Shown piece by piece: positions 1,797 through 28,278 of a stretch of DNA of 37,279 nucleotides. The first letter of the stretch is position 1. Each line of letters starts with the position of its first letter. The DNA comes from Solirubrobacterales bacterium (lineage in GTDB: Bacteria > Actinomycetota > Thermoleophilia > Solirubrobacterales > Solirubrobacteraceae): NCBI GenBank assembly GCA_019244745.1, contig JAFASF010000257.1, forward strand, positions 1 through 37,279. Direction: 5' to 3'. The position numbers were made by a program, and so were the translations under genes. Below the pieces are notes generated by a model, which was not told where the DNA came from, searched no databases, and saw only the letters and a program-made list of their open reading frames with translations.

Positions 1797-1834
1797 CCGA
1801 GCGGGGGACGATCGCCCGACCGGAGACCCGAGGG

Positions 1835-3022: not shown

Positions 3023-3028
3023 CCCACC

Positions 3029-3046
3029 ACCCTAGCCCGTTACGCT
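3029..3046. promoter_or_regulatory. Divergent leaderless-type -10 elements (MFS gene and methyltransferase)
   Basis: The 33-bp gap between the two divergent genes holds TAGGGT on the minus strand, six bases before the MFS GTG, and TACGCT on the plus strand at 3041-3046, nine bases before the methyltransferase ATG. Both fit the actinobacterial TANNNT -10 consensus. No convincing -35 is seen for either. Confidence 0.55.
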
Positions 3047-3055
3047 CTCGTGCCC

Positions 3056-3622
3056 ATGAACCGGATCCACAACGTGCTGTGCTCATCGGGCTGGTGGTCG
3101 CGCACCGTGCGATCCGAGCTGCTGCCGTGGGGCCTGGAAGGCGTGGAACTGGGCGACGAGGTGCTCGAGGTCGGGCCCGGGTTCGGCGCGACCACCAAGG
3201 TGCTCGCCGGACGAACCGAGAAGCTCAGCGTGGTCGAGCTCGACGAGGGCTACGTGCGCCGCCTACGGTCCGAGCTTCCGGAGTCCGTTTCCGTCACCGA
3301 GGGCGATGCCACCGACCTGCCGTATCCCGACGGCCGATTCTCGGCGGTGGTCTGCTTCACGATGCTGCACCACATTCCCACCCGCGAGCTCCAGGATCGA
3401 GCGTTCGCCGAGGTGGCCCGGGTGCTGGCCCCCGAAGGAACGTTCGCCGGCACCGACAGTCTGGGCGCCGGATGGCTGTTCAAGCTGATCCACGTCGGCG
3501 ACACGCTCAACCTCGTCGACCCCGGCGGGCTTCCGGCGCGCCTGAAGAGCGCCGGACTGTCCGATCCCGAGGTGGACCTTGGCGGCCGGTCGCTTCGGTT
3601 CCGCGCGCGCAAGCGAGCGTGA
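3056..3622 (+). CDS. Class I SAM-dependent methyltransferase
   Basis: A 188-residue Rossmann-fold methyltransferase. The SAM-binding motif I is EVLEVGPGFGATTKVLA, motif II carries the acidic residue in LSVVELDEGY, and the later motifs EGDATDLPYPDGRFSAV and MLHHIP are present, as in UbiE/COQ5-like (Methyltransf_11) enzymes. The methyl acceptor is unknown. The track ORF begins at 2714, but everything before MNRIHNVLC is antisense to the MFS gene. ATG 3056 is chosen because it matches the family N-terminus; GTG 3050, in frame, is an alternative. It is a single gene, divergent from the exporter and followed by a strong hairpin. Confidence 0.9.
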   Translation: MNRIHNVLCSSGWWSRTVRSELLPWGLEGVELGDEVLEVGPGFGATTKVLAGRTEKLSVVELDEGYVRRLRSELPESVSVTEGDATDLPYPDGRFSAVVCFTMLHHIPTRELQDRAFAEVARVLAPEGTFAGTDSLGAGWLFKLIHVGDTLNLVDPGGLPARLKSAGLSDPEVDLGGRSLRFRARKRA

Positions 3623-3626
3623 CCTC

Positions 3627-3659
3627 CCGGCGCGGCGCGCCGCAGCTTCGCCGCGCCGG
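3627..3659 (+). terminator. Hairpin terminator after methyltransferase
   Basis: A perfect 11-bp GC stem (CCGGCGCGGCG / CGCCGCGCCGG) with an 11-base loop begins five bases after the methyltransferase stop. No U-tract follows, which is common in high-GC actinobacteria. Confidence 0.6.
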
Positions 3660-3765
3660 AACATGCGTCGGCGACTGATCCGATTCGCCTCCCCGTCCGT
3701 ACTGGAGGTATCGACCACGTAGTTCCCACGCCGGCCGAGCCGGTGGAAAAGAGGAGGTGCCAGGA

Positions 3766-4095
3766 GTGACCGATCAGCAGCCGGGGGGCGACGGCGTGAC
3801 CCGCCTGTCCTTCCTCAAGGGCTCGGCCGGCGTGGCGGCCGGAATGGCGGCCGTGGGCGTACCCGCGGCGGCGGCGATTACCACCAAGGACGCGCGCGTC
3901 GTCACGACCCCCGCGTCGCGAACCCCGCGGGAGCCCGTGATCGCGTACGTGCGCGACGCCGCGCGCGGCGAGGTGACGATCGTGTCAGGGACGAGCGAGA
4001 CCACGTACCGCGACCGCGCGCTCGCGCAGCGGCTCCTCGATGCCGCTCCGCGGGACCCTTTCACGAACGGAGGTGCCAGTGTCCTCGCACCGTGA
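3766..4095 (+). CDS. Small exported protein with Tat-like signal, DUF4331 cassette
   Basis: A 109-residue protein I cannot assign to a named family. The N-terminus has a Tat-like signal: TRLSFLKGSAG followed by a hydrophobic Ala/Gly/Val stretch and an AAAA cleavage-like region near residues 34-37. The usual twin arginine is reduced to Arg-Leu, with the FLK part intact. The rest (about 70 residues) has no membrane segment and a small beta-like section EVTIVSGTSETTYRD. The start is GTG 3766, placed seven bases after AGGAGG; the track start at GTG 3757 would overlap that ribosome site. Its 3' end overlaps the DUF4331 gene by 17 bases, and the two are probably translationally coupled. It may be an export partner or a maturation subunit, which is inference from position only. 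Confidence 0.7.
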   Translation: MTDQQPGGDGVTRLSFLKGSAGVAAGMAAVGVPAAAAITTKDARVVTTPASRTPREPVIAYVRDAARGEVTIVSGTSETTYRDRALAQRLLDAAPRDPFTNGGASVLAP

Positions 4096-5488
4096 AGCGC
4101 CGGAGATCAGCAAGGACCCGGTTGCCGACAACACCGACGTCTACGCGTTCGTCAGTCCCGATAAGCCTGACACGGTCACGCTGATCTCAAACTTCGTGCC
4201 GCTCCAGGACCCGCCCGGCGGCCCGAACTTCTACGAGTTCGGAGACGACGTCCTGTATTCGATCTATGTCGACAACGATGGCGACGGTGTCCCGGAGATC
4301 TCTTTCGTGTTCCGCTTTGAGACCACTCTGCGTGACCCGAACACCTTTCTCTACAACACAGGCCCGATCACCTCTCTCGACAGCCCGAATTGGAACAAGC
4401 GCCAGTTCTACTCCGTGACCCGCGTCGACGCGGACGACACGACCGCGTTCGGGACTGCACGAAACGGCCACAGGATTCGGGCGCGCGTGCTGGGCGAGGG
4501 GCTGGCGTGCCCTCCGTGCAACATCGGCCCTCGCTCGACGCCGAACTACGCCGCGCTCGGTCAGGCGGCCGTGCACCCCCTTCCCGGCGGCGTGCAGGTG
4601 TTCGCCGGTCAGCGCAACGAAGGTTTCTACGTCGACCTCGGGGCGATCTTCGACCTCGGGGACCTGCGGCCGTTCCAGAACCTGCATCTGATCCCGACCC
4701 CGGCTGCACCGGGGGTGGACGCAACCAAGAACCTGAACATCCACACGATCGCGATGCAGATCCCGATCTCGCAGCTGACCGCGAACGGCTCGAGGCCGAA
4801 GAGCGCGAGCGACGGCTCCGCGGTGATCGGGGTGTGGAGCGCCGCGAGTCGCCGCAAGGTGCGAGTCATCGACCGCGGGGAAGACGAGGACGCCAAGGCC
4901 GGGCCGTGGATCCAAGTCTCCCGCCTGGGCAACCCGCTGTTCAACGAGGTGATCGTGCCGCTCGGGCAGAAGGACCGGTGGAACGCGCTGTATCCCGCCG
5001 ACGACAAGCAGTTCGCGCAGTTCGTCCAGCACCCGGAGCTCGCCCGCCTGCTGCCGGTGCTCTATCCGGGGGTGTTCCCGCATCTGGCCGCCCTCAGTGC
5101 GCCGCGGGCGGACCTCGTGGCGATCCTGCTGACCGGGCTTCCCTCGGGCATCGTGCCCGGGTTTCAGAACTTCACCGGGCCCGTGCTCGCCGATCAGCTG
5201 CGGCTGAACACGGCGATCCCGCCGACCACCTCGAACCCCAACCGGTTCGGCATCCTCGGCGGCGACCTCGCGGGGTTCCCGAACGGAAGGCGCGTGTTCG
5301 ACGACGTGGTCAGCATCGAGCTGCGGGCCATCGCCGGCGTGACGTTCGCGCTGGTGGACCGCTCTTTCACGCCGGACGCGGCGGCCGGAGAGCTGACCGA
5401 GGGGCTCATCCCTGCGCCCGGGCGCTACCAGGCCACGTTCCCGTACCTCGCGCCCGCACTCGACGGGTTCGACAATCCGCCCAGTTAG
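4079..5488 (+). CDS. DUF4331 family protein
   Basis: The 469-residue protein opens with the DUF4331 hallmark SSHREAPEISKDP, then NTDVYAFVSPD, and an Asp-rich segment (YVDNDGDGVPEI) that looks like a calcium- or metal-binding loop. A conserved Cys pair, CPPCNIGPRSTPNY, sits around residues 144-147. The family has no established biochemical function. Many homologues carry a signal peptide, but this one begins directly at the conserved domain with no hydrophobic leader. The start GTG 4079 follows GGAGG at about five bases; the track ORF start at 4040 lies inside the upstream gene. It sits between a small Tat-like protein and a 105-residue protein, forming a compact cassette with overlaps and a 14-base gap. 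Confidence 0.85.
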   Translation: MSSHREAPEISKDPVADNTDVYAFVSPDKPDTVTLISNFVPLQDPPGGPNFYEFGDDVLYSIYVDNDGDGVPEISFVFRFETTLRDPNTFLYNTGPITSLDSPNWNKRQFYSVTRVDADDTTAFGTARNGHRIRARVLGEGLACPPCNIGPRSTPNYAALGQAAVHPLPGGVQVFAGQRNEGFYVDLGAIFDLGDLRPFQNLHLIPTPAAPGVDATKNLNIHTIAMQIPISQLTANGSRPKSASDGSAVIGVWSAASRRKVRVIDRGEDEDAKAGPWIQVSRLGNPLFNEVIVPLGQKDRWNALYPADDKQFAQFVQHPELARLLPVLYPGVFPHLAALSAPRADLVAILLTGLPSGIVPGFQNFTGPVLADQLRLNTAIPPTTSNPNRFGILGGDLAGFPNGRRVFDDVVSIELRAIAGVTFALVDRSFTPDAAAGELTEGLIPAPGRYQATFPYLAPALDGFDNPPS

Positions 5489-5502
5489 CCAGCGGCCAGA
5501 CC

Positions 5503-5820
5503 ATGCACGAGATCTACTCCGCGCGCAAGCACCCGGAATTCGTGGTGCTCGACATCGGGGGCGATATCGGAGCGCTGATCGTCCACGCCGACGAGCACAT
5601 GCAAGGCGTCGAGGTCGAGATCAGCCCGGCCGGCGACGATCTGGCTCTCAGCCACAAGGAGGTGCTCGAGCGCTCCATCGATGGCCGCCCCGCGTTCACC
5701 GCCGTGTTCGATGGGCTCGCCGCCGGCGCCTACACGCTGTGGGTGCGCGGTGAGGCATGGAACCGGGGGGTCTCGGTCGCCGGCGGAGCGGTCGCCGAGC
5801 TCGACTGGAGAGCGATCTAA
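5503..5820 (+). CDS. Conserved small protein of the DUF4331 cassette
   Basis: A 105-residue soluble protein starting at ATG in MHEIYSARKHPEFVVLDIGGDIG. It alternates short beta-like strands (FVVLDIGGDIGALIVH, VEVEISPAGDD, YTLWVRGEAWNRGVSVAGG) and ends in DWRAI, which suggests a small all-beta fold. I do not recognise a named domain. It begins 14 bases after the DUF4331 stop, is on the same strand, and is presumably the last gene of that transcript. The track ORF (4390..5820) is in this frame, but its upstream part is an Arg/Pro-rich shadow of the DUF4331 gene. Function unknown. Confidence 0.7.
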   Translation: MHEIYSARKHPEFVVLDIGGDIGALIVHADEHMQGVEVEISPAGDDLALSHKEVLERSIDGRPAFTAVFDGLAAGAYTLWVRGEAWNRGVSVAGGAVAELDWRAI

Positions 5821-5848
5821 CTCGCTGTTCAACCAGCCGTACGCGCGC

Positions 5849-6032
5849 CGGGAACCACTAGTGGGGCTCCCGGAAACGTTTCGCCCGTAATGCCGGACCG
5901 GATGACCGCCAGGCTTCGTCCTCGGATCCTCGTGTAGCGCTGCTACACGTCGGATCCTGCGTCCTCGCCTGACGGCCCCCGGTCTCGACCTTCCGGGCGA
6001 AACGCTTCCGGTCGACCCACTAGGGTTGCCCG
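5849..6032. repeat. 184-bp imperfect inverted repeat with central perfect hairpin
   Basis: Outer arms 5849-5890 and 5991-6032 align as reverse complements at 33 of 42 positions without gaps, sharing TTTCGCCCG and TAGTGGG blocks. The inner parts continue the symmetry more weakly, with a shared CAGGC and a GGATCC on each side. The centre is a perfect 8-bp stem (CGTGTAGC, loop GCT, GCTACACG) at 5931-5949 on the same axis of symmetry. The element fills almost all of the gap between the DUF4331 cassette and cysS and ends three bases before the cysS start. The right arm contains TAGGGT (6021-6026), a possible cysS -10 box. It could be a MITE-like remnant, a structured leader or terminator, or a protein-binding site. 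Confidence 0.75.
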
Positions 6033-6035
6033 ATC

Positions 6036-7391
6036 GTGCGAGTCATCTCGCTGCATGACACCCGAACCGGCAGGTTGCAGGTCCTGGAGCCCAGAGAGCC
6101 GGGCAAGATCGGCATCTACGCCTGTGGCCCCACGGTCTACGGGCGGATCCACGTGGGCAACGCACGTCCGTTCGTCGTCTTCTCGCTGCTCAAGCGGTTC
6201 CTCGTCCACGAGGGATACGAGGTGACCTTCGTGGCCAACATCACGGACATCAACGACAAGATCTATGCCGCGGCGCAGAAGGAAGGGATCGAAAGCGAGC
6301 AGCTCGCGCTTTCGATGACCGACGCATACATCACGGACACCGACGCCCTCGGGCTCGGGCGGCCGGACTACGAGCCGCTCGCCAGCCAGACGATCGATGA
6401 GATCATCGAGCTGATCGGGTGGCTGATCGAGCGTGGGCATGCCTACGCCGCGGACGGCGACGTCTACTTTCAGGTGCGCAGCTATCCCGAATACGGCGAG
6501 CTGTCCCACCGCAACGTCGACGACATGGACCAAGGGGAAGGAATCGACGGAGCGGAGCGCAAACGCGACCCGCTCGATTTCGCCCTCTGGAAGGCACGGA
6601 AGCCGGGCGAGGACACGGCCTGGGACTCTCCCTGGGGAAAAGGGAGGCCGGGATGGCACATCGAGTGCTCGGCGATGGCCGAGGCGATCCTCGGGCTCGG
6701 TTTCGAGATCCACGGGGGCGGCGAGGACCTCATCTTCCCCCACCACGAGAACGAGGCCGCGCAGACGTTCGCGGCGCACGGAGTCCCGCTGGCCCGGATG
6801 TGGGTGCACAACGGAATGGTCCGGCTCGACCAGGCGAAGATGGCCAAGTCCGTCGGCAACGTGTTCGTGCTCCACGAGGCGCTCGAGCAGTACGGGCGCG
6901 ATGCGCTCATCGTGTACTTCTGCGGCGGCCACTACCGCCAGCCGATCGAGTTCGACGATGAGCGGCTGAGCGAGGCGAGGGAGCGCGGCAGAGGGATAGC
7001 GGAGGCCGCCCGGCGCCGGCTTGAGCCGGGCGATTCCCCCGTCTGGTCGGGGGCGCTGCGCGAGCGGTTCTTCGACGCGCTGGCCAAGGACTTCAACACA
7101 CCTCGAGCGCTGGCGGCGGTAGCCGAGTGGGTGCGCGAGGCCAACCGGTCCGAGCAACGCGTCGGCGACCGGGACCTGCGCGAGATGCTCGGGGTGCTCG
7201 GGCTCGAGAACCTGCTCGACGTCGCGCCGGCGGAGATTCCGCCGGAGGTGATCGAACTGCGCGATCTGCGCGAGCGGGCGCGCGCCGAGCAGGACTACGC
7301 GCGGGCCGATCGCCTGAGAGAGGAGATCAAGAGCCTGGGCTGGGAGGTCCGCGACGGCCCAGAGGGCGCCGAGCTGCTGGCCGTCAGGTGA
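6036..7391 (+). CDS. cysS: Cysteinyl-tRNA synthetase
   Basis: A class I aminoacyl-tRNA synthetase that charges tRNA-Cys with cysteine in the cytosol. The 451-residue product shows the HIGH-type motif HVGNARP after YACGPTVYGRI, the second signature MAKSVGN (KMSKS equivalent), and zinc ligands in YACGP, WHIECSAM and FPHHENE. The anticodon-binding helical C-terminus is present (RAEQDYARADRLREEIKSLGW). The start is a GTG giving VRVISLHDTRTG, the expected family N-terminus. No T-box sequence was found in front of it. The stop overlaps the rlmB GTG by four bases, so the two are co-translated. Confidence 0.96.
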   Translation: MRVISLHDTRTGRLQVLEPREPGKIGIYACGPTVYGRIHVGNARPFVVFSLLKRFLVHEGYEVTFVANITDINDKIYAAAQKEGIESEQLALSMTDAYITDTDALGLGRPDYEPLASQTIDEIIELIGWLIERGHAYAADGDVYFQVRSYPEYGELSHRNVDDMDQGEGIDGAERKRDPLDFALWKARKPGEDTAWDSPWGKGRPGWHIECSAMAEAILGLGFEIHGGGEDLIFPHHENEAAQTFAAHGVPLARMWVHNGMVRLDQAKMAKSVGNVFVLHEALEQYGRDALIVYFCGGHYRQPIEFDDERLSEARERGRGIAEAARRRLEPGDSPVWSGALRERFFDALAKDFNTPRALAAVAEWVREANRSEQRVGDRDLREMLGVLGLENLLDVAPAEIPPEVIELRDLRERARAEQDYARADRLREEIKSLGWEVRDGPEGAELLAVR

Positions 7392-8080
7392 TCATCTACG
7401 GCCGCAACCCGGTGTGGGAGGTGATCCGCGGCCCGCGCGCGATACGGCGGGTGTGGGCGACCAAGAACGCGGCGCGCGAACCGTGGCTGCCCCAGGTCGG
7501 CGTCGACGTGGTCATCGCCACCGCCGAGGAGGTGGAACAGCGGTGCGGGTCGAGCGAGCACCAGGGGATGTGCGCCGAGGTGTCGGCCTTTCGCTACGCC
7601 GACGGGGCCGATGTCCTGGCCGCCGGCCGTACGCTGATCGTGGCCCTCGACCAAATCCAGGATCCCCAGAACCTCGGTGCGATCTGCCGCACGGCAGAGT
7701 GCGCCGGCGCTACCGCCGTGGTGATCCCCGAACGACGCTCGGCGGAGGTCACGGCGGCCGTGTGCAAGGCGTCGGCGGGCGCCGTCGAGCACCTGCCGAT
7801 CGCGCGGGTTCGCAACCTGGCCGATTTCCTGACCGAGGCCAAGAACTCCGGCAGCTGGTGCTACGGGGCCGACCCGCACGCGTCGGTCGCTCACGACAGC
7901 GTCGACTACAACGGCAGTGTGGTGATCGTCCTTGGGTCCGAGGGTCGGGGCCTGCGTCCGCGAGTCGCCACCACCTGTGACGCCCTCGTTTCGATCCCCG
8001 TGCGGGGCCGCGTGGGATCGCTGAGCGTGAGCGCGGCAGCGGCCGTGCTGCTGTACGCGGCGGCGGCGCGTCGCACCTGA
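7388..8080 (+). CDS. rlmB: 23S rRNA (guanosine-2'-O)-methyltransferase, TrmH/RlmB family
   Basis: A 230-residue SPOUT-fold methyltransferase of the TrmH/RlmB family, which 2'-O-methylates 23S rRNA (G2251 in E. coli). The N-terminal substrate-binding domain starts with IIYGRNPVWEVI. The knotted catalytic domain shows DQIQDPQNLGAICRTAE, GSEGRGLRP, and IPVRGRVGSLSVSAAAAVLLY, the three SPOUT motifs. The GTG start overlaps the cysS stop (GTGA); the longer track ORF start at 7127 is a shadow of cysS. The cysS-rlmB pairing is widely conserved, including in Firmicutes. The exact rRNA position is inferred from the family. Confidence 0.93.
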   Translation: MIIYGRNPVWEVIRGPRAIRRVWATKNAAREPWLPQVGVDVVIATAEEVEQRCGSSEHQGMCAEVSAFRYADGADVLAAGRTLIVALDQIQDPQNLGAICRTAECAGATAVVIPERRSAEVTAAVCKASAGAVEHLPIARVRNLADFLTEAKNSGSWCYGADPHASVAHDSVDYNGSVVIVLGSEGRGLRPRVATTCDALVSIPVRGRVGSLSVSAAAAVLLYAAAARRT

Positions 8081-8095
8081 AACCGGTGCGGGCCC

Positions 8096-8124
8096 TTGAC
8101 AGACGAGCATTGCTATGTCAAGCT
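8096..8124 (+). promoter_or_regulatory. Candidate sigH promoter overlapping an inverted repeat
   Basis: A consensus -35 TTGACA (8096-8101) is followed after 17 bases by CAAGCT (8119-8124), close to the TAAGCT/TAAGGT -10 boxes seen elsewhere in the window. The same bases form a perfect 7-bp inverted repeat, CTTGACA at 8095-8101 and TGTCAAG at 8116-8122, with a 14-base spacer, so a dimeric regulator could sit on the promoter. It lies about 130 bases before the sigH start. Confidence 0.5.
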
Positions 8125-8142
8125 GCCGCGCCGGGAGATAAG

Positions 8143-8176
8143 GGTCAACTGAAGCTTTACGCTGCTGCGGTTGACC
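8143..8176. repeat. Inverted repeat GGTCAAC-N20-GTTGACC in the sigH leader
   Basis: A perfect 7-bp inverted repeat downstream of the candidate promoter, again built on TTGAC. It could be a second operator site or the base of a leader-RNA stem. A further stem, CGAGC (8219-8223) with GCTCG (8236-8240), precedes the ribosome site AGGGA. No known riboswitch could be matched. Confidence 0.45.
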
Positions 8177-8254
8177 AGGTGCGGCGCAAAGGGGAGGTAA
8201 GGCGCCACGAAATCCATTCGAGCGGCTCCCGGCCGGCTCGAGAAGGGACGTCTC

Positions 8255-8905
8255 GTGGCTCGACTCTCCACCAGTTCTCACCCTCATCCTCAGGTGGAGG
8301 ATGGGTATCTGATTGCACTGGCGAAACAGGGGCACCCAGATGCGTACGACCACATCGTCCGGCGTTATTACGGCTTCGTACGGCTCAAGGCCTCGTCCTA
8401 CTTCCTGGCCGGCGGGGATTCCGACGATCTCATCCAGGAGGGGCTCGTCGGTCTGTACAAGGCGATCCGCGACTACCGAACGGACCGTGAATCGAGCTTC
8501 CGCAACTTCGCGGAGCTGTGCATCACCCGCCAGATCATCACCGCGGTGAAGACCGCCACCCGAAACAAGCACAGCCCGCTCAACCAGTACGTCTCGTTCT
8601 CCAGCAGTCCCGCCGGGGCCGCTGGCGACACCGAGCCCACGCTCGACGAGATCCTTCCGGGGTCTTCCGTTCATGACCCGGTCAACCAGGTGATCTCCTC
8701 CGAGGAGCTGCGGGCGCTCGTCGCCTGCATCTCGACCGCGCTCTCCGAGCTCGAGTCGCGAGTCCTGGCCTTGTATCTCGACGGCCACTCTTACGAAGAG
8801 GTCGGCCGGCGGATCGGCTGTGACTGCAAGACGGTCGACAACGCCCTCCAGAGGGTCAAGCGCAAGGTCGGCCAGCACCTGGCCGAGCGCAGCGTGGCCG
8901 CGTAG
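8255..8905 (+). CDS. sigH: RNA polymerase sigma factor, SigH-like
   Basis: A 216-residue sigma-70 family factor closely resembling Bacillus SigH (sigma-30). Region 2 is clear: LKASSYFLAGGDSDDLIQEG followed by LVGLYKAIRDYR and FAELCITRQIITAVKTATRNKH. A variable linker follows, then a region-4 helix-turn-helix (LSELESRVLALYLDGHSYEEVGRRI ... KTVDNALQRVKRK). In Bacillus, SigH controls the transition to stationary phase and sporulation; its regulon here is unknown. The start GTG lies eight bases after AAGGGA. The gene follows rlmB as in Firmicutes, with a 174-base structured leader carrying its own promoter, which suggests separate control. A convergent PHP gene ends six bases beyond it. Confidence 0.92.
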   Translation: MARLSTSSHPHPQVEDGYLIALAKQGHPDAYDHIVRRYYGFVRLKASSYFLAGGDSDDLIQEGLVGLYKAIRDYRTDRESSFRNFAELCITRQIITAVKTATRNKHSPLNQYVSFSSSPAGAAGDTEPTLDEILPGSSVHDPVNQVISSEELRALVACISTALSELESRVLALYLDGHSYEEVGRRIGCDCKTVDNALQRVKRKVGQHLAERSVAA

Positions 8906-8911
8906 TCATTT

Positions 8912-9778
8912 TCAATCCGCGATCGGACCGAGTAGAGGCTCGTATCCGTACGTGTCGAATGCCCGGAAGCTCGAGAACTCCGAGTGATCGGGCCCATGGA
9001 AGTCGGAGGATCCCGTGCTCAGGAGGCCGAGCTGCTGGCAGCGTTCGGTCAGCAGCCGCACCTGGTCGGGGCCGTGCATCGGGTAGAAGCACTCGATCCC
9101 ATCGATTCCCTGCGCGTGCATGCGGTCGATGCCCTGGAGCACCTCCTCTCGGCCGGCGCCCGTCCAGAAGGGATGGGCCCACACCGCGAGTCCGCCCGCC
9201 TCGTGGACGGCGGCGATCGACTCGCGCACGCTCGGCGAGCTGCGGGGGCGGAAGCCGGGCCGGCCTTCGATGAGGTAAGCCTCCAGAAACGCCGAGGAAT
9301 CCATCAGGCCCTCGGCGTCCAACCGAGAAGCGTTGGCAGGTGCCGCAAGGACCGCCTGGGCGAGGTGAGGGCGCCCGATCGACTTGCCCTCGGCCGCTCG
9401 GCGTCGCAGGAGATCCTCGTCGAGCTCGAAGCCAAGCTCGGTCAGCGCCTGCGCCATCGCGGCCGCCCGACGCCTGCGGTGGGTGCGATATTCCTCGAGC
9501 CGCTCGGAGAGCCGAGGATCGCGGTCATCGATGAGATAGCCGAGGATGTGATGGTCCGTGCCGTTTTCGTCGAACGCCGAGATCTCGACCGCTGAGACCA
9601 GGTGAACGCCGAGCTCGCCGGCGGCGGCGCGAGCCTGCGGAACACCGTCGACCGTGTCGTGGTCGCTCAGGGCCAGGAGCTCCACCCCGGCGGCCACGGC
9701 GACCGCAACCACTTCCCGCGGGGCGAGGGCGCCGTCGGAGTGGTGCGAGTGGCTCTGGAGGTCGAACGTTGGGGGGAT
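8912..9778 (-). CDS. PHP domain metal-dependent phosphoesterase
   Basis: A PHP-superfamily protein (about 285 residues) with the full set of metal ligands: HSHHSDG at the N-terminus, LSDHDTVDG, the Glu in SAVEIS, TDHHILGYL, WAHPFW and SSDFHG. It resembles the TrpH/YciV (RNase AM) type, which acts on 3',5'-nucleoside bisphosphates or RNA 5' ends; the activity is inferred. The track starts at GTG 9712, which would remove the catalytic HSHHSDG; the frame clearly continues upstream as PPTFDLQSHSHHSDG. No ATG, GTG or TTG exists in frame between there and the upstream gene. The first near-cognate codon is an ATC, used here as a provisional boundary. It is convergent with sigH and divergent from the SBP56 gene. 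Confidence 0.85.
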   Translation of the reverse strand: MPPTFDLQSHSHHSDGALAPREVVAVAVAAGVELLALSDHDTVDGVPQARAAAGELGVHLVSAVEISAFDENGTDHHILGYLIDDRDPRLSERLEEYRTHRRRRAAAMAQALTELGFELDEDLLRRRAAEGKSIGRPHLAQAVLAAPANASRLDAEGLMDSSAFLEAYLIEGRPGFRPRSSPSVRESIAAVHEAGGLAVWAHPFWTGAGREEVLQGIDRMHAQGIDGIECFYPMHGPDQVRLLTERCQQLGLLSTGSSDFHGPDHSEFSSFRAFDTYGYEPLLGPIAD

Positions 9779-9797
9779 TGCTATAAGTCCTGTGGAG

Positions 9798-9814
9798 TTT
9801 GGGCAAATCCCAAA
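9798..9814. promoter_or_regulatory. Small palindrome TTTGGG-N5-CCCAAA before SBP56 gene
   Basis: A perfect 6-bp inverted repeat lies between TATAAG (9782-9787, a possible -10) and the ribosome site of the SBP56-family gene. Its position suits an operator. The region is shared with the 5' end of the divergent PHP gene. Confidence 0.35.
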
Positions 9815-9834
9815 ACGAAGGAGCTGCGAAGACG

Positions 9835-11202
9835 ATGAGCGCGCATTCCCACGCTGAACAAGAGCACACCGGGCCGGGGTACGCGTCGGTGCAGGACGCC
9901 CGCGAGCAGCCCCCGGAGGAGTTCGTCTACGTCGCCGCCCTGTACGAGGGAACGGGAATCAACCGTCCCGATTTCATCGCGGTCGTCGACGTGAATCCGA
10001 GCTCCCCGAGCTACGGCCAGATCGTCCACCGCACCGAGATGCCCAACATCGGCGATGAGCTGCATCACTTCGGATGGAACGCGTGCTCCTCGGCGTGCCA
10101 CTCGCAGCTGAAGCGCGACACGATGATCGTCCCGGGCGTGCGCTCTTCGCGGCTGCACATCATCGACATCTCAGAGCCGCGGACGCCTCGGATCAAGAAT
10201 GTGATCGAGGGCGAGGAGGTCAAGGAGAAGCTCGGCCTGAGCGCGCCGCACACCGTGCACTGCATGCCGGGCGACATCATCACGATCTCGATGCTCGGGG
10301 ACGCTGACGGCAACCTGCCGGGCGGGTTCGCCGTGCTGGACGCCCGCGACTTCTCGATCGCCGAGCGCTGGGAGCGCGAGAAGAACGGCCAGGAGTTCAT
10401 GTACGACTTCTGGTATCAGCCGCGCCTGAACACGCTCATCTCGAGCGAATGGGCCTCGCCGAACACCTTCCTCGAGGGGTTCAACCCCGCCGACGTGGCG
10501 GCCGGCAAGTACGGGCGCAGGCTCCACTTCTGGGACCTGGAGCGCCACGCGAAGGTCCAGACGCTCGATCTTGGCGACGAGGGATGGATCCCGCTCGAGA
10601 TCCGCTGGCAGCACGACCCGGACTCCGCGCAGGGGTTCGTGGGTGCGACGCTGTCCAGCAACATCATTCGCTTCCACCGCGACAACGGCAGCTGGGCCGC
10701 AGGAAAGGTGATCGACATCCCCAACGAGGAGCTGCAGGGCTGGCCCCTCGAAGGCGGCGTCCCCGGACTGATCACCGACCTCGTGTTGTCGCTCGACGAC
10801 AAGGACCTGTTCTTCTCAAACTGGCTCCACGGTGACGTTCGCCACTACGACGTGTCGGATCCGTCCAACCCGCAGCTGCGCTCGCAGGTGTGGCTGGGGG
10901 GGTTGCTCGGCCGCGACGGGGGTCACCCGAAGGCGCGTCGTCCGCTGAATGGCGGCCCGCAGATGATCCAGAACTCGCTCGACGGCAATCGCGTCTACGT
11001 CACGAACTCGCTGTTCTCGACTTGGGACAACCAGTTCTATCCCGGAATCGAGGGGTGGCTGGTGAAGCTGGAGCGCCAGCCGGACGGCAAGTACACGCTC
11101 GACCCGGACTTCTTCGTCGACTTCCACGAGCAGGCCGACGGAGCCCGGCCCCACGAGATCCACCTCCCGAGCGGCGACTGCACCACAGAGATCTTCCAGT
11201 AG
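9835..11202 (+). CDS. Selenium-binding protein 56 / methanethiol oxidase family protein
   Basis: A 455-residue beta-propeller of the SBP56 family. Bacterial relatives include copper-dependent methanethiol oxidases (MtoX), which convert methanethiol to formaldehyde, sulfide and peroxide. Family signatures are GDELHHFGWNACSSACHS, SRLHIIDI, HTVHCMPGDIITISMLGD, LSNNIIRF-like and FFSNWLHGDVRHYDVSDP segments, and the C-terminal HEIHLPSGDCTTEIF. Several His residues typical of the metal site are present. No signal peptide is seen, so a cytosolic location is likely, unlike secreted MtoX. ATG 9835 is preferred over the track start 9799 because GGAG lies about eleven bases upstream and MSAHSHAEQ is a plausible N-terminus. 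It is a single gene followed by a strong terminator. Confidence 0.88.
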   Translation: MSAHSHAEQEHTGPGYASVQDAREQPPEEFVYVAALYEGTGINRPDFIAVVDVNPSSPSYGQIVHRTEMPNIGDELHHFGWNACSSACHSQLKRDTMIVPGVRSSRLHIIDISEPRTPRIKNVIEGEEVKEKLGLSAPHTVHCMPGDIITISMLGDADGNLPGGFAVLDARDFSIAERWEREKNGQEFMYDFWYQPRLNTLISSEWASPNTFLEGFNPADVAAGKYGRRLHFWDLERHAKVQTLDLGDEGWIPLEIRWQHDPDSAQGFVGATLSSNIIRFHRDNGSWAAGKVIDIPNEELQGWPLEGGVPGLITDLVLSLDDKDLFFSNWLHGDVRHYDVSDPSNPQLRSQVWLGGLLGRDGGHPKARRPLNGGPQMIQNSLDGNRVYVTNSLFSTWDNQFYPGIEGWLVKLERQPDGKYTLDPDFFVDFHEQADGARPHEIHLPSGDCTTEIFQ

Positions 11203-11248
11203 CCCCGCCTGCTCGGCGAGCGGGATCGGGCGGCCGGCGAGGTCTCAT

Positions 11249-11282
11249 CCGCCTGACGGGCCCCGCCAGGCCCGTCAGGCGG
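11249..11282. terminator. Perfect 14-bp hairpin between convergent genes
   Basis: CCGCCTGACGGGCC and GGCCCGTCAGGCGG form a perfect 14-bp stem with a 6-base loop, 46 bases after the SBP56 stop. The opposing alpha/beta hydrolase uses a TGA stop that lies inside the right arm. It is probably a bidirectional terminator. Confidence 0.8.
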
Positions 11283-12051
11283 AAGCTGCGATGTCGTGCA
11301 GCAGCTCCGACAGAGAATCAGGCGTCGAGAACATCGGCCAATGGCCGGTCGCAAGCTCACGGAACTCCCAGTCCCCTTTGGAGAAGACGGCGGCCCGCGG
11401 GTCGCCCTCCTGCATCAGGCGGCGCACCAGCTCGGCCGTCATCCCGCCGGCGGTGCAGAAGATCGCCTCGTGTCGCTCGGCCCGGGCGGCTCCGCCATTC
11501 TTCAAGCGCAGCGGCGTGGTGAACGTCGCGTACGGCTGTGGCGTTCCACGTTCCCGGAACGCTCGGAGGTGCTCGTCGTTCAAACCAGCGATGCTTCCGT
11601 ATGTGCCGGGGGCGAGCGTGGCGCGATCGGGAACCGGCCAGCGCCAGCCATCGCCGCGCTCATCGACATCGCGTCGTTGCCGTTCGCGCATCTCCGGCGG
11701 CTGGACGTCGGTGAGCGCCATACCGTCTGGAATCGGTGAGGTGTCCAGGTACACGCAGCTGTGGAGGCGGGGTGCGCTCCGGTCCTCGACTCCGGTGATC
11801 ACGATGCCGGCGTAGCTGTGCCCGACGAGCACGACCCGATCGAGATCCTCGTACTCGAGCAGGTTCACGACGTCGTTGATGTGAGTGTTCAGGTCGACGC
11901 TCGGGCCGGCGAGATGTACCCGTTCGCCGAGCCCCGTGAGCGTCACCGGGTAGACGTCGTGTCCGCGGCCCCGCAAGTCGCGCCCGACGTCCCGCCACGC
12001 CCAGCCCCCGAGGCAGGCCCCGGGGACGAGAACAATCGGTGACGGGCCCAC
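11275..12051 (-). CDS. Alpha/beta fold hydrolase
   Basis: A 258-residue alpha/beta hydrolase. The oxyanion region is LVPGACLGGWAW, the nucleophile elbow is GHSYAG, and the catalytic His is in ATGHWPMFSTPDSL near the C-terminus. The overall pattern resembles the plant methylesterase / hydroxynitrile-lyase-like esterase group. The substrate is unknown. The start is taken as the GTG in VGPSPIVLVPG, three bases after the upstream crotonase stop; a TTG overlapping that stop as TTGA is equally possible. The larger track ORF is a frame shadow of the crotonase. It is co-transcribed with the crotonase, suggesting ester or thioester processing in the same pathway. Its stop lies in the terminator stem. 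Confidence 0.88.
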   Translation of the reverse strand: MGPSPIVLVPGACLGGWAWRDVGRDLRGRGHDVYPVTLTGLGERVHLAGPSVDLNTHINDVVNLLEYEDLDRVVLVGHSYAGIVITGVEDRSAPRLHSCVYLDTSPIPDGMALTDVQPPEMRERQRRDVDERGDGWRWPVPDRATLAPGTYGSIAGLNDEHLRAFRERGTPQPYATFTTPLRLKNGGAARAERHEAIFCTAGGMTAELVRRLMQEGDPRAAVFSKGDWEFRELATGHWPMFSTPDSLSELLHDIAASA

Positions 12052-12053
12052 CG

Positions 12054-12845
12054 TCAAGCGCCGACGAACGCGGGCTGGCGCTTCTCGACGAACGCCGCCG
12101 CCCCCTCGACGAAGTCCTTGCTGCGCCCGAGGGCGTGCTGGAGCTCGGCCTCGAGCTCGAGCTGAGCCTCCAGATCGCCGTAGATGAACCGGTTGAGCGC
12201 CTGCTTGGAGCTGGCGTATGAGCGCGTGGGCCCGGCCGCGAGCCGACCGATGAGTGCCTCGGCCTCGGTCAACAGCTCCGCGTCGGGATGAATCCAGTTG
12301 ATCAAGCCCCACTCGAGCGCCTGCGCCGCCGGGACGCGCTCGCCGAGCAACGCCATCTGGAACGCGCGCGCCTTGCCGATGGCGGGAGGCACGAACGCGG
12401 TCGAACCTCCGTCCGGCATCAGGCCGATGTTCACGAACGCCAGGCCGAAGAAGGCCGACTCGGCGGCGAGCACGAGGTCGCACGCGAGCGCCAGCGAGCA
12501 GCCGATCCCCACGGCAGGCCCGTTGACCGCCGCGACCACGGGCTTGGGGAGGCGGCGCACGCCCGCGATTACGGGGTGGTAGACCTCGTGGAGTTCGCGC
12601 CGGATGTCGGGCATCCCGTCCTCGGCGGGATGAAATCCGGCCTTCAGGTCCGCGCCCGAGGAGAATGCTCTCCCCGCACCGGTCACGAGCACGGCGCGGA
12701 TCGACTCCTGTGCCGCGTCGCCTTCGATGACGTCCTTCAGCTCGCGGCCGAACTGGTCGGTCCACGCGTTGAGGGTGTCGGGACGGTTCAAGGTCAAGCG
12801 GCCCACCCCCCCAGACTGCTCCCAGATCACGGTCTCGTAGCTCAA
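12054..12845 (-). CDS. Enoyl-CoA hydratase/isomerase family protein (PaaG-like)
   Basis: A 263-residue crotonase-fold protein acting on acyl-CoA thioesters. The two oxyanion-hole segments are AGRAFSSGADLKAG and NGPAVGIGCSLALACD. The second acidic position reads GLMPDGGST, as in PaaG-type isomerases that keep an Asp, rather than the two Glu of true hydratases, so an isomerase or related activity is more likely. The start is TTG, supported by AAGGAGG six bases upstream on the minus strand. It is followed by the alpha/beta hydrolase with almost no gap, forming a two-gene unit. The specific substrate (aromatic or fatty acyl-CoA) is not determinable. Confidence 0.9.
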   Translation of the reverse strand: MSYETVIWEQSGGVGRLTLNRPDTLNAWTDQFGRELKDVIEGDAAQESIRAVLVTGAGRAFSSGADLKAGFHPAEDGMPDIRRELHEVYHPVIAGVRRLPKPVVAAVNGPAVGIGCSLALACDLVLAAESAFFGLAFVNIGLMPDGGSTAFVPPAIGKARAFQMALLGERVPAAQALEWGLINWIHPDAELLTEAEALIGRLAAGPTRSYASSKQALNRFIYGDLEAQLELEAELQHALGRSKDFVEGAAAFVEKRQPAFVGA

Positions 12846-12885
12846 GCTCGACCTCCTTGCTGTGTGGTGTGCGGGTGCGTGACCC

Positions 12886-13353
12886 TCAGCCGCGCGCCTT
12901 GCGCTCGCGCTCGCGAAGCTTTTCGATTACCTGGGCCACGCGCCGCTCACGTGTCTCCTCGCGTTTAGCCTCCCGCACGGATCGGGCGTACTCCTTGCGG
13001 TAGGTGTAGGAGAGTGAGTCAAAGATCTGGCGCAGCGGTGGCTGCGTCGCCAGCGCCGCGGCGAGCGGTTCAGGCACCTCGACCTCGCGGCGAGCGTCGT
13101 CGAACTCGAGTTCGACCTCGACCGTGTCGCCCGCCTGCACCTCGGCCGCCTCGCGGACCGCGCGGCTCAAGCCGATCATCGACTCTCCGCGCATGCGGGC
13201 GACGGTCGTGCGCCACGTGTAGCCGTTGACGGTCGCCGCCACCGGAAAGCGCTTGGCGCCCTCGCCGACCGCGGCCACCTGGTCGTCGTCGAGCACCACG
13301 GCCGCGGCCGGACCGCGCGCCATGAGCGTGGCGGTGAACCGAATCGACCCCAC
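12886..13353 (-). CDS. DUF1905 / YdeI-like (OmdA) domain protein
   Basis: A 155-residue protein. The first 90 residues match the DUF1905 beta-barrel pattern (IRFTATLMARG, VNGYTWRTTVARMRGESMIGLSRAVREAA, AGDTVEVELEFD). The C-terminal part is the YdeI/OmdA-type tail LFDSLSYTYRKEYARSVREAKREETRERR, here reading IFDSLSYTYRKEY, which is rich in Arg, Lys and Glu. The biochemical role is unknown; homologues are annotated as bacteriocin-protection-like or DUF1905. The start GTG is preceded at six bases by GAAAAT, a weak leaderless-type -10. The track start TTG at 13383 adds ten residues not expected in the family. It lies 40 bases upstream of the crotonase and may or may not be co-transcribed. Confidence 0.8.
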   Translation of the reverse strand: MGSIRFTATLMARGPAAAVVLDDDQVAAVGEGAKRFPVAATVNGYTWRTTVARMRGESMIGLSRAVREAAEVQAGDTVEVELEFDDARREVEVPEPLAAALATQPPLRQIFDSLSYTYRKEYARSVREAKREETRERRVAQVIEKLRERERKARG

Positions 13354-13395
13354 CGCGCGATTTTCGCATCTGGCCGAGCTCAAGCACGCGTCGCC

Positions 13396-14265
13396 TCACC
13401 TCGGCCGGGCAGCCAGGGCGACCTCGCGCGCCGTGCGGATGAACGCCTCGACCGCAGGGCGCAGGTGCCGAGGATTCCAAGCCAGAGACACCAGGGCCCG
13501 CTCGGCGTCCGTCACCTCGACATAGGCCACGTCGGCTCGGGGATAATGGCGCGCCACGGAGGCGGGAACCAGGGAGATCCCTTGCCCGGTTGCCACCAGG
13601 GTGAGGATCTCCTGCACGCTGGCGGCCTCGGCTGCGACGCGTCCGGGGAGTCCGTGGCGTCGCTGCTCGTCCAGCCATCGCGCCGGCGAGCCCGATCCGG
13701 GGACAACCGGATTGGTGATGAACCTCTCCTCGCGCAGCTCCGAGAACGTCAGCGAAGCACGAGCCGCGAGCCGATGCTCGCTCGGGAGCGCGACCATCCG
13801 GGGCTCGCGAGCGATCACCTCGACCTGCACCTCGGCCTGGCCGCACTGCAGCCGAGTGAACGCCACGTCGACGTTGCCGCCGATGACGTCGTCGAGGCGG
13901 CCGAGCAGGAGCTCGCGGACCGAGATCCGGACCGCGGGGTGCTCCTCGGAGAAGGCACGGAGCGCGTGTGGCAGGAGGGTGCCGGCCGCGGATCCGTAGA
14001 AGCCGATCGTAAGCTGCTCCGATCCGGCCGCCCGAGTCGCCCGCACCGTCTGGTGCGCCTCAGCCAGCAGCCGGCGTCCCTCGGTGAGCAGCACCTGCCC
14101 GGCGGGGGTGAGGGCGACGTGGCGGCTGGTTCGGTCGAGCAGGGTCACGCCGAGCTGATGCTCGAGGCGACGAACCTGCTGACTGAGCGACGGCTGGGCG
14201 ATGTGCAGGCGAGCGGCGGCGCGGCCGAAGTGAAGCTCTTCGGCCACGGCCACGAAGTAGTGCAC
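13396..14265 (-). CDS. LysR family transcriptional regulator
   Basis: A LysR-type regulator of about 290 residues: an N-terminal winged helix-turn-helix (AEELHFGRAAARLHIAQPSLSQQVRRLEHQLGVTLLDRTSRHVALTPAG) and a C-terminal periplasmic-binding-like effector domain. It is divergent from the SMP-30-like gene and probably controls it and itself. The track start at GTG 14265 (VHYFVAVAEEL) clips the usual LysR N-terminus; in frame upstream the sequence reads DRPDLRLVHYFVAV, but no ATG, GTG or TTG is available before a stop. An ATC at 14289 lies exactly six bases after TAGGTT on the minus strand, the spacing of leaderless starts seen elsewhere here. A TAGG-N5-CCTA operator overlaps that box. Confidence 0.92.
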   Translation of the reverse strand: MHYFVAVAEELHFGRAAARLHIAQPSLSQQVRRLEHQLGVTLLDRTSRHVALTPAGQVLLTEGRRLLAEAHQTVRATRAAGSEQLTIGFYGSAAGTLLPHALRAFSEEHPAVRISVRELLLGRLDDVIGGNVDVAFTRLQCGQAEVQVEVIAREPRMVALPSEHRLAARASLTFSELREERFITNPVVPGSGSPARWLDEQRRHGLPGRVAAEAASVQEILTLVATGQGISLVPASVARHYPRADVAYVEVTDAERALVSLAWNPRHLRPAVEAFIRTAREVALAARPR

Positions 14266-25676: not shown

Positions 25677-27428
25677 ATGTCAGGTTCTAAGGCCGGAGAC
25701 AGTGGACGCGATCCGCGGGCCGGCGAAATCATCAGCTTTCTGCGCTCCCACGGGGCCGAGCGACTCGGCCACGCGGGCGGTCGCACGTTGCTCGACCATC
25801 TCGTGGGGACGTACGAGATCGTACGCCGCTGGGAGCAACCTCTCGTGTTCCAGCACGCGGCGCTGGTGCACAGCGTGTACGGAACCGACGTCTACGCCCG
25901 GCGGCTGCTGCCCCTTTCGAGGCGAGAAGATGTGGTCCGGGTCGCGGGAGATCAAGCCGAGCGCTTGGCGTATCTGTTCTGCGCGACCCCCCGCGATCTC
26001 CTCTTCGCGGGCACCCATGTCTGGGCTCGGGATCTCCCTGGTGTCAGCGATCGAGACGCGCACGATCAACCGGCCGCCACACGAGCCGAGCTGGACGCGC
26101 TCGTACTTCTGCACATGGCAAATAGGGCCGAGCAGGCGCGCGCGGAGGATGGGTCGCCGGCGCCGTGGCTGACGGACGTGCGCGAATTGGCTGAGCTGCT
26201 GATCGGCAGCGACGCCGTGACCCTCCCCTTGTTCGTGGCTGAACTCGCCGCGTTCTCCGAGGACGATGAAGCGCTAACCCGGCGCGCATACCGCGACGGG
26301 ATGGCTCGAGCCGACGATCCTGGGGCGATGGCGAACCTGATGGCGCTGGCGGCGGCGGCCTGTCCGGTAGTGCCCGAACCGTGCATTTGGCAGGCCTACC
26401 TGTCGCGCTGCCGGGGAGGCATGTCGATGGCGCGATGGTGGGCGCGATGTGCCCGCCGGCGACTCCTTACCCTCGGTACAGCTTGGGACAAGCGGCTGAG
26501 TTTCGACGAGTGGCTTGAGCTCGCGGGGGTACTCGCACAGCCACCCGATCGGCGGTCACCGGAGTCAGCCGGCGCGAGCGCCAGCCCGCGCGCGCTCTAC
26601 GAGACAGTGGCGCGTGGTCACGTCGATGCGGTCTCCGGACGCGACTCGTCGAGGTCCACGACCCAGCCAACCGCGCTGCCGGATGCGGCGGCGGGTAGGA
26701 GGCGCTTCCACCGCTACGTCGACACGTTCGCCCACGGGGACGATCTCCCCCTGAGAGGGGTCTACCCGCAGTTGGATGGCCAGCCCTGGTACGACCCCTC
26801 GGAGTTTCCCCTGGTGAGCTACCTGGAGTCGCACTATGACGCGATTCGGGATGAGATCTTGGGGCTCGGGTCTTTGCCATTTCACCGCGAGAGCGAACGG
26901 ATCAAGCGATCCGGGGAGTGGGATGTGGCGTTTCTCTACGAACGCGGACGCCGGAGGGACGCGATGTGCGACGCATGCCCGGTGACCACGCGGGGCATCG
27001 AGTCCTACCCGGCCATGCGCACGGTCGCGGGCTTGATCTACGCGTCTCGGATGCGAGGCGGAACGCACATTGAGGCTCACCGCGGCCCCACGAACCTGAG
27101 GGTACGTTGCCACCTGGGGATCCAGGTGCCCGAAGGGGATTGCGGGATCCGGGTAGCCGACGAGACCCGGCAATGGCGCGAAGGGCAGTGCCTCGTGTTC
27201 GACGATCATTTCGAGCACGAAGCTTGGAATCACACCGACGAGGACCGGATCGTGCTGATCGTCGATATGTGGCATCCGGGGCTGTCGCCCACGGAAGTAC
27301 GCCTGCTCGAGGGGCTGCACAGGTACGCCTACGCGTACGCGCGGCAGCTCAGCAAGTACTGGTCCTCGAACGCCGCGGCCGCCGGCGGGCGGGGCGGCGG
27401 TAAGCCGCGTCCGCAGGCTCTCGGTTAG
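25677..27428 (+). CDS. DUF6817-like domain fused to aspartyl/asparaginyl beta-hydroxylase domain
   Basis: A 583-residue two-domain protein. Residues 20-110 match the DUF6817/HD-like pattern (HAGGRTLLDHLVGTYEIVRRW, FQHAALVHSVYGTDVY). The linker (about 120-370) is mostly helical. Residues 370-545 form an aspartyl/asparaginyl beta-hydroxylase double-stranded beta-helix: HIEAHRGPTNLRVRCHLG supplies one Fe(II) ligand (His468), FDDHFEHEAWNH the second (His514), and DRIVLIVDMWHP the 2-oxoglutarate Arg. Such enzymes hydroxylate Asp or Asn in proteins or peptides. The substrate is unknown. ATG start. The stop overlaps the opposing gene's stop. The domain combination is unfamiliar to me. Confidence 0.82.
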   Translation: MSGSKAGDSGRDPRAGEIISFLRSHGAERLGHAGGRTLLDHLVGTYEIVRRWEQPLVFQHAALVHSVYGTDVYARRLLPLSRREDVVRVAGDQAERLAYLFCATPRDLLFAGTHVWARDLPGVSDRDAHDQPAATRAELDALVLLHMANRAEQARAEDGSPAPWLTDVRELAELLIGSDAVTLPLFVAELAAFSEDDEALTRRAYRDGMARADDPGAMANLMALAAAACPVVPEPCIWQAYLSRCRGGMSMARWWARCARRRLLTLGTAWDKRLSFDEWLELAGVLAQPPDRRSPESAGASASPRALYETVARGHVDAVSGRDSSRSTTQPTALPDAAAGRRRFHRYVDTFAHGDDLPLRGVYPQLDGQPWYDPSEFPLVSYLESHYDAIRDEILGLGSLPFHRESERIKRSGEWDVAFLYERGRRRDAMCDACPVTTRGIESYPAMRTVAGLIYASRMRGGTHIEAHRGPTNLRVRCHLGIQVPEGDCGIRVADETRQWREGQCLVFDDHFEHEAWNHTDEDRIVLIVDMWHPGLSPTEVRLLEGLHRYAYAYARQLSKYWSSNAAAAGGRGGGKPRPQALG

Positions 27429-28192
27429 AAATCCCCCCCGTCGCCACCGCCACCCCAATCCCCGCCGTCGCCGCCGTCTCCCCAGCCGCCGCCGTCGCCG
27501 CCGTCGCCGCCGTCTCCCCAGTCGCCGCCGTCGCCCCCGTCTCCATCTCCGTCGCCTCCGAACAGGTCGCCGACGGCCTCCGCACCGAAGCCAAGGCCCG
27601 CCCCAAGCACCGAGCCCATCAGGAGCCCGGACAACAGACCGCCGCCACCGAAGCCGTTGAAGTAGCCGCCCGCCCACGGTCCGTAGTGACGTGGAGCATT
27701 CCAGTAGTCGGTCGCTCGACCGTCGACCGTCACCTGCCGGCCGTGCGGCTGGAAGCCTTCCTTAATCCGTAGCGCGTCGGCGGCGCAGGCCGGTACGGGC
27801 CGCAGGGAACCGCCGGGCGGCGCCCACTGGACGTCCTCGGTCGAAGGTCCGTGACGAGGGTCAAAGAAGCACGGCGGCCTTCGCTGCGGCGGGGGCCGAC
27901 CGTCGATCAGGGCCTTGGCACACGCCATCGCGTACCGCCCCTCCTCGAGCGTCTCGCTCACCGGAGCAAGATCCTCCGGGCGCTTTGCCCGGTCGAAGAT
28001 GTCGCTGGCCCGCTGGTAGGCCTCGAGCGCTTGCTCGTAGCGCTGCTTTGCCTCGTCTGAGACGCCCGGCATGCCGATGTCGACGTCGAGCGAGCGGATG
28101 TCGTCGCCGAGCGCGACGACGTCATCCTGAGCGGACCCCCGAACCTCCTCCCACTCCCGCTCACGGCGCGTCTTATGTCCGAAGAACGGCAT
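27425..28192 (-). CDS. Gly/Asp-rich C-terminal tail protein of unknown function
   Basis: A 255-residue protein. The N-terminal 110 residues are charged and helical (TRREREWEEVRGSAQDDVVALGDDIRSLDVDIG, then a coiled-coil-like EALEAYQRASDIFDRAKRPEDL), with a Cys-containing middle (RRPPCFFDPRHGP, VPACAADALRIKEG). A short hydrophobic glycine-rich stretch follows (GGGLLSGLLMGSVLGAGLGF), and the end is a GDGGDGGDWG repeat ending in GDF. The order helical domain, possible membrane insertion, Gly-rich tail recalls TPM-type proteins, but I cannot name the family. ATG 28192 (MPFFGHKTRRE) is chosen over the track start ten codons upstream. Its stop shares bases with the opposing gene's stop (TTAG). Confidence 0.7.
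   Translation of the reverse strand: MPFFGHKTRREREWEEVRGSAQDDVVALGDDIRSLDVDIGMPGVSDEAKQRYEQALEAYQRASDIFDRAKRPEDLAPVSETLEEGRYAMACAKALIDGRPPPQRRPPCFFDPRHGPSTEDVQWAPPGGSLRPVPACAADALRIKEGFQPHGRQVTVDGRATDYWNAPRHYGPWAGGYFNGFGGGGLLSGLLMGSVLGAGLGFGAEAVGDLFGGDGDGDGGDGGDWGDGGDGGDGGGWGDGGDGGDWGGGGDGGDF
27428..27556 (-). repeat. Tandem Gly-Gly-Asp codon repeat
   Basis: About 43 codons of near-repetitive GGC/GAC/GGG sequence encode GDGGDGGDWG-type units. The same DNA reads as Arg-rich runs on other minus frames, producing several false ORFs in the track. Confidence 0.7.
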
Positions 28193-28278
28193 TGCCCGGC
28201 AACGATACCCATGGGTCACCACCGGCGGGGCGCCGGCATCGTGCCCTGTTTACACACAGGAGGCGTCGGTGAATGGCG

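Follow-up and report, generated by a model that had tools for sequence, protein, structure and literature searches.

A DUF6817–AspH-type oxygenase fusion that recurs beside Gly-Asp-repeat polypeptides in three bacterial phyla, a candidate polypeptide hydroxylase

The window analysed here, a stretch of 37,279 nucleotides from a soil bacterium of the Solirubrobacterales, carries an open reading frame of 583 amino acids that begins with ATG, runs without interruption and joins a DUF6817 domain, a TPR-like helical module and an AspH-type 2-oxoglutarate (2OG) oxygenase domain (Table 1). An earlier reading, made from the sequence alone, had proposed that a DUF6817-like domain and an aspartyl/asparaginyl hydroxylase share one chain. 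The Pfam search bore this out with two matches that lie 277 residues apart and far above the curated cut-offs: PF20680 (DUF6817) with 83.1 bits (E 1.6e-23; cut-off 25.2 bits) and PF05118 (Asp_Arg_Hydrox) with 164.8 bits (E 1.8e-48; cut-off 22.6 bits). The fusion gene converges with a gene for a 265-residue protein with a Gly-Asp-rich (GD-rich) tail, and the last 4 bases of the two genes overlap. Other nearby genes of the window are ordinary: an MFS transporter, a weak match to a GH79 C-terminal domain, a LysR regulator and an F420 oxidoreductase-like protein.

Table 1. Features of the fusion gene and its convergent neighbour (positions in the window)
Feature	Position	Strand	Basis
DUF6817 – TPR-like – AspH-type 2OG oxygenase fusion gene	25677..27428	+	uninterrupted ORF, homologues
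DUF6817 domain, residues 21-106; predicted HD-like fold with HS replacing HD; conserved H32, H41, H65, E95	25737..25994	+	Pfam, Foldseek, alignment
Remainder of predicted HD-like helical fold; contains the LHMANxAEQ motif (H146, N149), which is kept in the fusion family	25995..26180	+	alignment, model
Predicted TPR-like helical module, residues about 181-290; Tistrella homologue annotated TPR	26217..26546	+	Foldseek, model, homologue
Variable, low-confidence linker from TPR-like module to oxygenase	26547..26687	+	alignment, model
Aspartyl/asparaginyl beta-hydroxylase domain, residues 384-534; Fe ligands H468/H514, 2OG ligands R524/S457, by alignment	26826..27278	+	Pfam, AspH alignment
Convergent neighbour, 265 aa; conserved CFFDPRHGPS core motif, hydrophobic Gly-rich stretch, Gly-Asp-Trp tail; candidate substrate or partner	27425..28222	-	flank comparison
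C-terminal tail of the neighbour, rich in Gly and Asp (GDLFGGDGDGDGGDGGDWGDGGDGGDGGGWGDGGDGGDWGGGGDGGDF); candidate region for hydroxylation	27428..27571	-	translation

The closest sequence match of the fusion protein in the PDB is human AspH (E 4e-41), in which His679, His725, Arg735, Ser668, His690 and Arg688 are the iron, 2OG and active-site ligands (PMC6817910). In the alignment these residues correspond to H468, H514, R524, S457, H479 and R477, respectively, all of them invariant in the seven fusion proteins compared. By this correspondence the iron is bound by H468 and H514, and the other four are 2OG and active-site residues. Since the ligands align with those of AspH and do not vary, the statement of the sequence-only reading that the hydroxylase has complete iron ligands was right; the family needs two His only. 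The residues that hold the carboxylate of the substrate aspartate in AspH, Gln627 and Lys666 (PMC6817910), are not kept and are V417 and Y455 in the fusion protein. Hence its target may not be Asp, or may be bound differently. The oxygenase domain also scores with the NCBIfam models of OlsC (114 bits) and LpxO (73 bits), as might be expected of a hydroxylase of lipids or small molecules whose GD-repeat neighbours are coincidental. However, the curated cut-offs, 450 and 500 bits, lie far above both scores, no PDB entry matches better than human AspH, and the TPR-like module together with the recurrent gene pairing described below suggests a polypeptide partner; we regard a lipid or small-molecule hydroxylase as distinctly unlikely.

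The stretch of about 250 residues between the two Pfam domains had been taken for a linker without any recognised domain, a description that does not hold. For the N-terminal 298 residues, modelled with 43 relatives, AlphaFold predicts a wholly helical structure (pLDDT 92, pTM 0.89), and Foldseek matches the second part of this model to the TPR proteins MamA and CTPR. The model of the whole protein is poor in its oxygenase half (pLDDT 53) because the alignment is shallow; its closest fold matches are human AspH structures comprising TPR and oxygenase. In the fusion protein of the window itself Pfam gives no TPR match. The Tistrella counterpart of the TPR-like module, an ORF of its own that comes after DUF6817 and overlaps it, does match TPR_16/19. 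These fold matches and the Tistrella ORF indicate that the supposed linker completes the HD-like fold, forms a TPR-like module and leaves no more than a short loose stretch. With a TPR-like module before the oxygenase, the C-terminal two thirds of the fusion would resemble human AspH. The Tistrella ORFs lie on plasmid pTM1 of Tistrella mobilis (L068 4884-5989), where DUF6817 and the TPR-like module overlap but differ in frame, as though a frameshift had separated them, next to genes for an HprK-like kinase, a sulfotransferase and a nucleotidyltransferase.

The first part of the N-terminal model is matched by Foldseek to proteins of the HD fold, namely small alarmone hydrolases, Rel, RelA, PhnZ and TmpB. 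For Rel, RelH, PhnZ and TmpB the match probabilities are mostly 0.9-1.0 but the E values only 0.02-0.5. One DUF6817 protein, from Paraburkholderia, gives a weak HD_4 match (E 0.0016), and a profile of the N-terminal region found no match among PDB sequences. The term HD-like, used in the sequence-only reading, thus agrees with the predicted fold but not with the HD dyad, whose Asp is missing: across DUF6817 the second conserved His is followed by S, A or G, and the last metal Asp of the HD motif is almost always Asn. Of four His residues pointed out in the N-terminus, three stood the comparison. H41 and H65 are invariant across DUF6817, and H32 is nearly so, as are E95 and N149. H60, in the FQH motif, is not conserved, and we rejected it as a fourth ligand: relatives have R, Q or N there.

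The same residues bear on whether the chain combines a hydrolase with the hydroxylase, as was first suggested, DUF6817 then being the part that hydrolyses nucleotides or alarmones. The nearest folds, alarmone hydrolases and Rel, would fit such an activity. Rel HD domains have a characteristic Glu-Asp motif, and this motif is absent from the DUF6817 alignment. Known HD enzymes, including the diiron oxygenases with their H...HD...H...H...D pattern, need the Asp of HD, which bridges both irons (PMC8177086). As this Asp is missing throughout DUF6817, a classical HD hydrolase is unlikely; moreover, the fusion loci examined have no nucleotide-related neighbours. We therefore rejected an alarmone-hydrolase activity, and a combined hydrolase and hydroxylase appears to us most improbable. 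Two metal-dependent activities in one chain, both putative, are possible. The literature that we searched makes no mention of DUF6817.

Full-length homologues of the fusion, 49-60% identical, occur in other genomes, so that it is not an assembly artefact. The fusion is present in 8 of 28 genomes of the window's genus, one copy (G021) being split between two contig ends. A search of genome contigs with a single N-terminal sequence gave no match; a profile scan of public genomes, built on an alignment, gave nine loci, and among them are two MAG loci with the architecture of the window's protein, L039 (Acidobacteria, 601 aa) and L040 (Dormibacterota, 572 aa). Further searches added G1017 and G1111, both Acidobacteria, so that three Acidobacteria genomes and one Dormibacterota genome carry the fusion outside the genus. 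The taxonomic spread, which had been named beforehand as a check, thus covers three bacterial phyla and marks the fusion as a conserved protein family. In a tree that includes the solo AspH genes found, all fused oxygenase domains belong to one clade (100/99). Within the phylum DUF6817 as such is rare, with 6 of 397 genomes. A second, large-genome genus, which we take to be Streptomyces, has it in 41 of 150 genomes, where it stands alone, with no 2OG oxygenase neighbour in the flanking DNA examined.

The GD-tailed neighbour lies beside the fusion in all eight genomes of the window's genus that have the fusion, and it is the sole conserved flanking gene. The other flanking genes all differ, the close pair G022/G023 excepted. 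Genomes with the fusion form a subset of those with the neighbour (8/10); the two with the neighbour and no detected fusion are G016 (L062 8844-9641) and G019 (L063 4085-4819). More widely, the neighbour family was found in 28 of 297 Actinomycetota genomes, mostly without the fusion, and GGGDF tails are already present there. Asp makes up 10-22% of the last 50 residues in family members without the fusion, one truncated record among these being left out, and 18-36% in the seven fusion loci measured. That the GD tail exists only together with the fusion was therefore rejected: tail genes without the fusion occur both in the genus and across Actinomycetota, which shows the tail to be independent of the enzyme.

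Outside the genus, unrelated GD-repeat polypeptides lie within about 1.5 kb of the fusion at three loci (L040, L123 and L139). The gene after the fusion in the Dormibacterota genome (L040) encodes a squalene-cyclase-like protein, and beyond it, 1.4 kb away, comes a GDT-tailed protein (8090-8593) that ends in GDTGDTGDTGDTGGDSWGDSGGDTGDTGDTGDGG and shows no sequence relation to the neighbour in the window. At L123 (G1017) the last gene of the same-strand run that includes the fusion encodes a RiPP-like leader-plus-core precursor of 75 residues (12565-12789) with FFFECGGDGGGDGGDYGDGDWGDGCVPGWDPGCGTWC at its end. At L139 (G1111) large (SSGDSSGDS)n proteins lie on both sides of the fusion operon, the nearer one 0.6 kb off. 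One Acidobacteria genome with the fusion, G591, has no GD repeat up to the contig end, 1.7 kb downstream. Hence the co-occurring genes, which the sequence-only reading had wished to see checked, place the fusion beside GD-repeat polypeptides in most lineages. As a criterion we used five GD in 40 residues. Under it the control loci gave 2 hits in 67 loci (358 kb), and both (L091 and L097) are probably antisense frames of GC-rich, Streptomyces-like genes. The criterion was set after the first two carriers had been seen, which leaves the two later Acidobacteria loci as the only independent ones. The literature searched holds no known system with GD-repeat cores.

Some details of these loci may be added. 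The GD-tailed protein of L040 (region 6523-9678, + strand) is flanked by a truncated squalene-hopene-cyclase-like protein and by a 358-residue protein without a Pfam match. The (SSGDSSGDS)n proteins of L139 (G1111:C1:2283500-2303400), encoded at 1672-4569 (- strand) and 11183-13738 (+ strand), have an N-terminal domain in common, and one of them ends in a tyrosinase domain.

In G1111 an epimerase and glycosyltransferases follow the fusion, and G591 shares the epimerase and a glycosyltransferase with it. An NAD-epimerase and a DXD-type glycosyltransferase after the fusion in these two Acidobacteria, and a further glycosyltransferase near the (SSGD)n proteins in one of them, might mean that the fusion prepares GD repeats for glycosylation, by hydroxylation in the GD(S) linkers and subsequent addition of sugars. 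However, no glycosyltransferase lies directly with the fusion in the window's genus or in Dormibacterota, none adjoins it in G1017, and Ser alone could accept a sugar; such a preparatory role seems to us highly unlikely.

Two AspH genes of G010 that lack DUF6817 nest inside the clade of fused oxygenases. They flank repeated short ORFs, and a lantibiotic dehydratase gene adjoins them. The ORFs have a common KPGTPEPD...EDLKAP...GG leader and varied Cys-rich ends. Judged by its gene content, this locus (L026) is an apparent LanB RiPP cluster. It shows the setting in which the oxygenase lineage is used, not which residue. Short precursor-like ORFs near the enzyme are seen here, beside solo AspH, and one at L123; the partner in the window is the 265-residue protein. 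Within L026 (G010:C83:9000-28000) the lantibiotic dehydratase, in N and C domains, the short ORFs and the two solo AspH genes together span 3330-12008. We rejected a daptide-like assignment of the L026 peptides, since we ascribe their match, at 16.5 bits against a cut-off of 25, to chance.

DUF6817 is also paired with 2OG oxygenases of another family. On plasmids of Paraburkholderia, Caballeronia and Polaromonas a 2OG-FeII_Oxy_3 gene overlaps at its end with the DUF6817 gene; cyanophage S-RIM50 has such an overlap too, with an oxygenase gene of this 2OG-FeII_Oxy_3 (P4H-like) kind. In the Acidobacteria genome G1246 the two are fused, with the P4H-like oxygenase N-terminal and DUF6817 after it, the reverse of the order in the AspH fusion. 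That two unrelated 2OG families have DUF6817 argues for a functional bond. The G1246 fusion (L140, G1246:C2, 4275-5318, + strand) mirrors the gene pairs of the Burkholderiaceae plasmids and the cyanophage. In Synechococcus phage S-SSM7 (L162 3390-4444) the overlapping gene is cupin/JmjC-like and not P4H-like. Cyanophage 2OG-oxygenase-like proteins (L161 3384-3983, PHROG phrog_274) are labelled 'DNA endonuclease V', apparently in error.

It might be possible, in view of this pairing, that DUF6817 is a second metalloenzyme: the AspH domain would make beta-hydroxy-Asp, and DUF6817 would oxidise or cleave the product, for example to aminomalonate. The fusions and gene overlaps that link DUF6817 to two unrelated 2OG families, the presence of PhnZ and TmpB among the fold matches and the conservation of H41, H65, H32, E95 and N149 would all suit such a tandem. 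There are precedents as well, and they lend the idea some appeal. In PhnY/PhnZ and TmpA/TmpB a 2OG hydroxylase is followed by an HD oxygenase (PMC8177086), and the SmaO/SmaX pair converts Asp to aminomalonate in a peptide (PMC13097080). On the other hand, HD oxygenases need the bridging Asp (PMC8177086), and DUF6817 has S, A or G in its place and Asn at the last position; on balance we think a tandem in one chain unlikely. Two oxidations carried out by one chain on the Gly-Asp repeats themselves, beta-hydroxylation by the AspH domain and then conversion (e.g. to aminomalonate) by DUF6817 through another metal site, we judge quite unlikely. If they did take place, polypeptides would be modified in a way that forms a new class, with unusual metal-binding residues packed in dense arrays along protein tails and RiPPs.

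The reading that we prefer, and to which we give about an even chance, is that the fusion is an Fe(II)/2-oxoglutarate-dependent, AspH-type hydroxylase of peptides or proteins that acts on a GD-rich polypeptide with DUF6817 as an accessory domain. Its substrate, target residue and use of DUF6817 are what we infer from domain content and gene context. The TPR domain of human AspH binds the EGF-like substrate. By analogy, the TPR-like module would bind the extended Gly-Asp-rich polypeptide, and the C-terminal oxygenase would beta-hydroxylate Asp, or a nearby residue, in the bound segment. GD-repeat polypeptides are the likely targets, and in the genome of the window this would likely be the Gly-Asp-Trp tail of the convergent neighbour. 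DUF6817 would probably serve in substrate recognition or product handling, or might catalyse a second step.

If this peptide or protein hydroxylase does act as proposed, AspH-type enzymes, which are known chiefly from the hydroxylation of animal EGF domains, would gain new substrates: the GD-repeat polypeptides beside the fusion in three phyla point to an undescribed substrate class, and their recurrence to a possible new modification of RiPPs or protein tails. The pairing with two unrelated 2OG families, in fusions and overlapping genes, gives DUF6817 a testable role. Among known systems, PhnY/PhnZ and TmpA/TmpB likewise couple a 2OG hydroxylase to an HD-fold protein (PMC8177086). The present protein differs from them in being a fusion, in its hydroxylase family, in an HD dyad without Asp and in having no recognised phosphonate genes nearby. 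The HD domains of small alarmone hydrolases and Rel/SpoT resemble DUF6817 in predicted fold, with the weak HD_4 match, whereas DUF6817 has HS, HA or HG for HD, no Rel Glu-Asp motif and no synthetase domain. OlsC and LpxO belong to the same PF05118 superfamily, with scores far under cut-off and no lipid context at the fusion. The RiPP enzymes SmaO, the MNIO PesHI and alphaKG-HExxH enzymes beta-hydroxylate Asp or other residues of precursor peptides (PMC13097080, PMC13060819), a likeness to the reaction proposed here; the fold of the PesHI enzyme differs from that of the fusion. Human and other vertebrate AspH have in common with the fusion the PF05118 oxygenase, the two-His iron site, the 2OG ligands and a helical TPR-like module directly N-terminal to the oxygenase. 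In comparison the fusion has a shorter TPR-like part, an additional N-terminal HD-like DUF6817 domain and no ER anchor; Gln627 and Lys666 are not kept, and its likely substrates are GD repeats where those of AspH are EGF-like domains.
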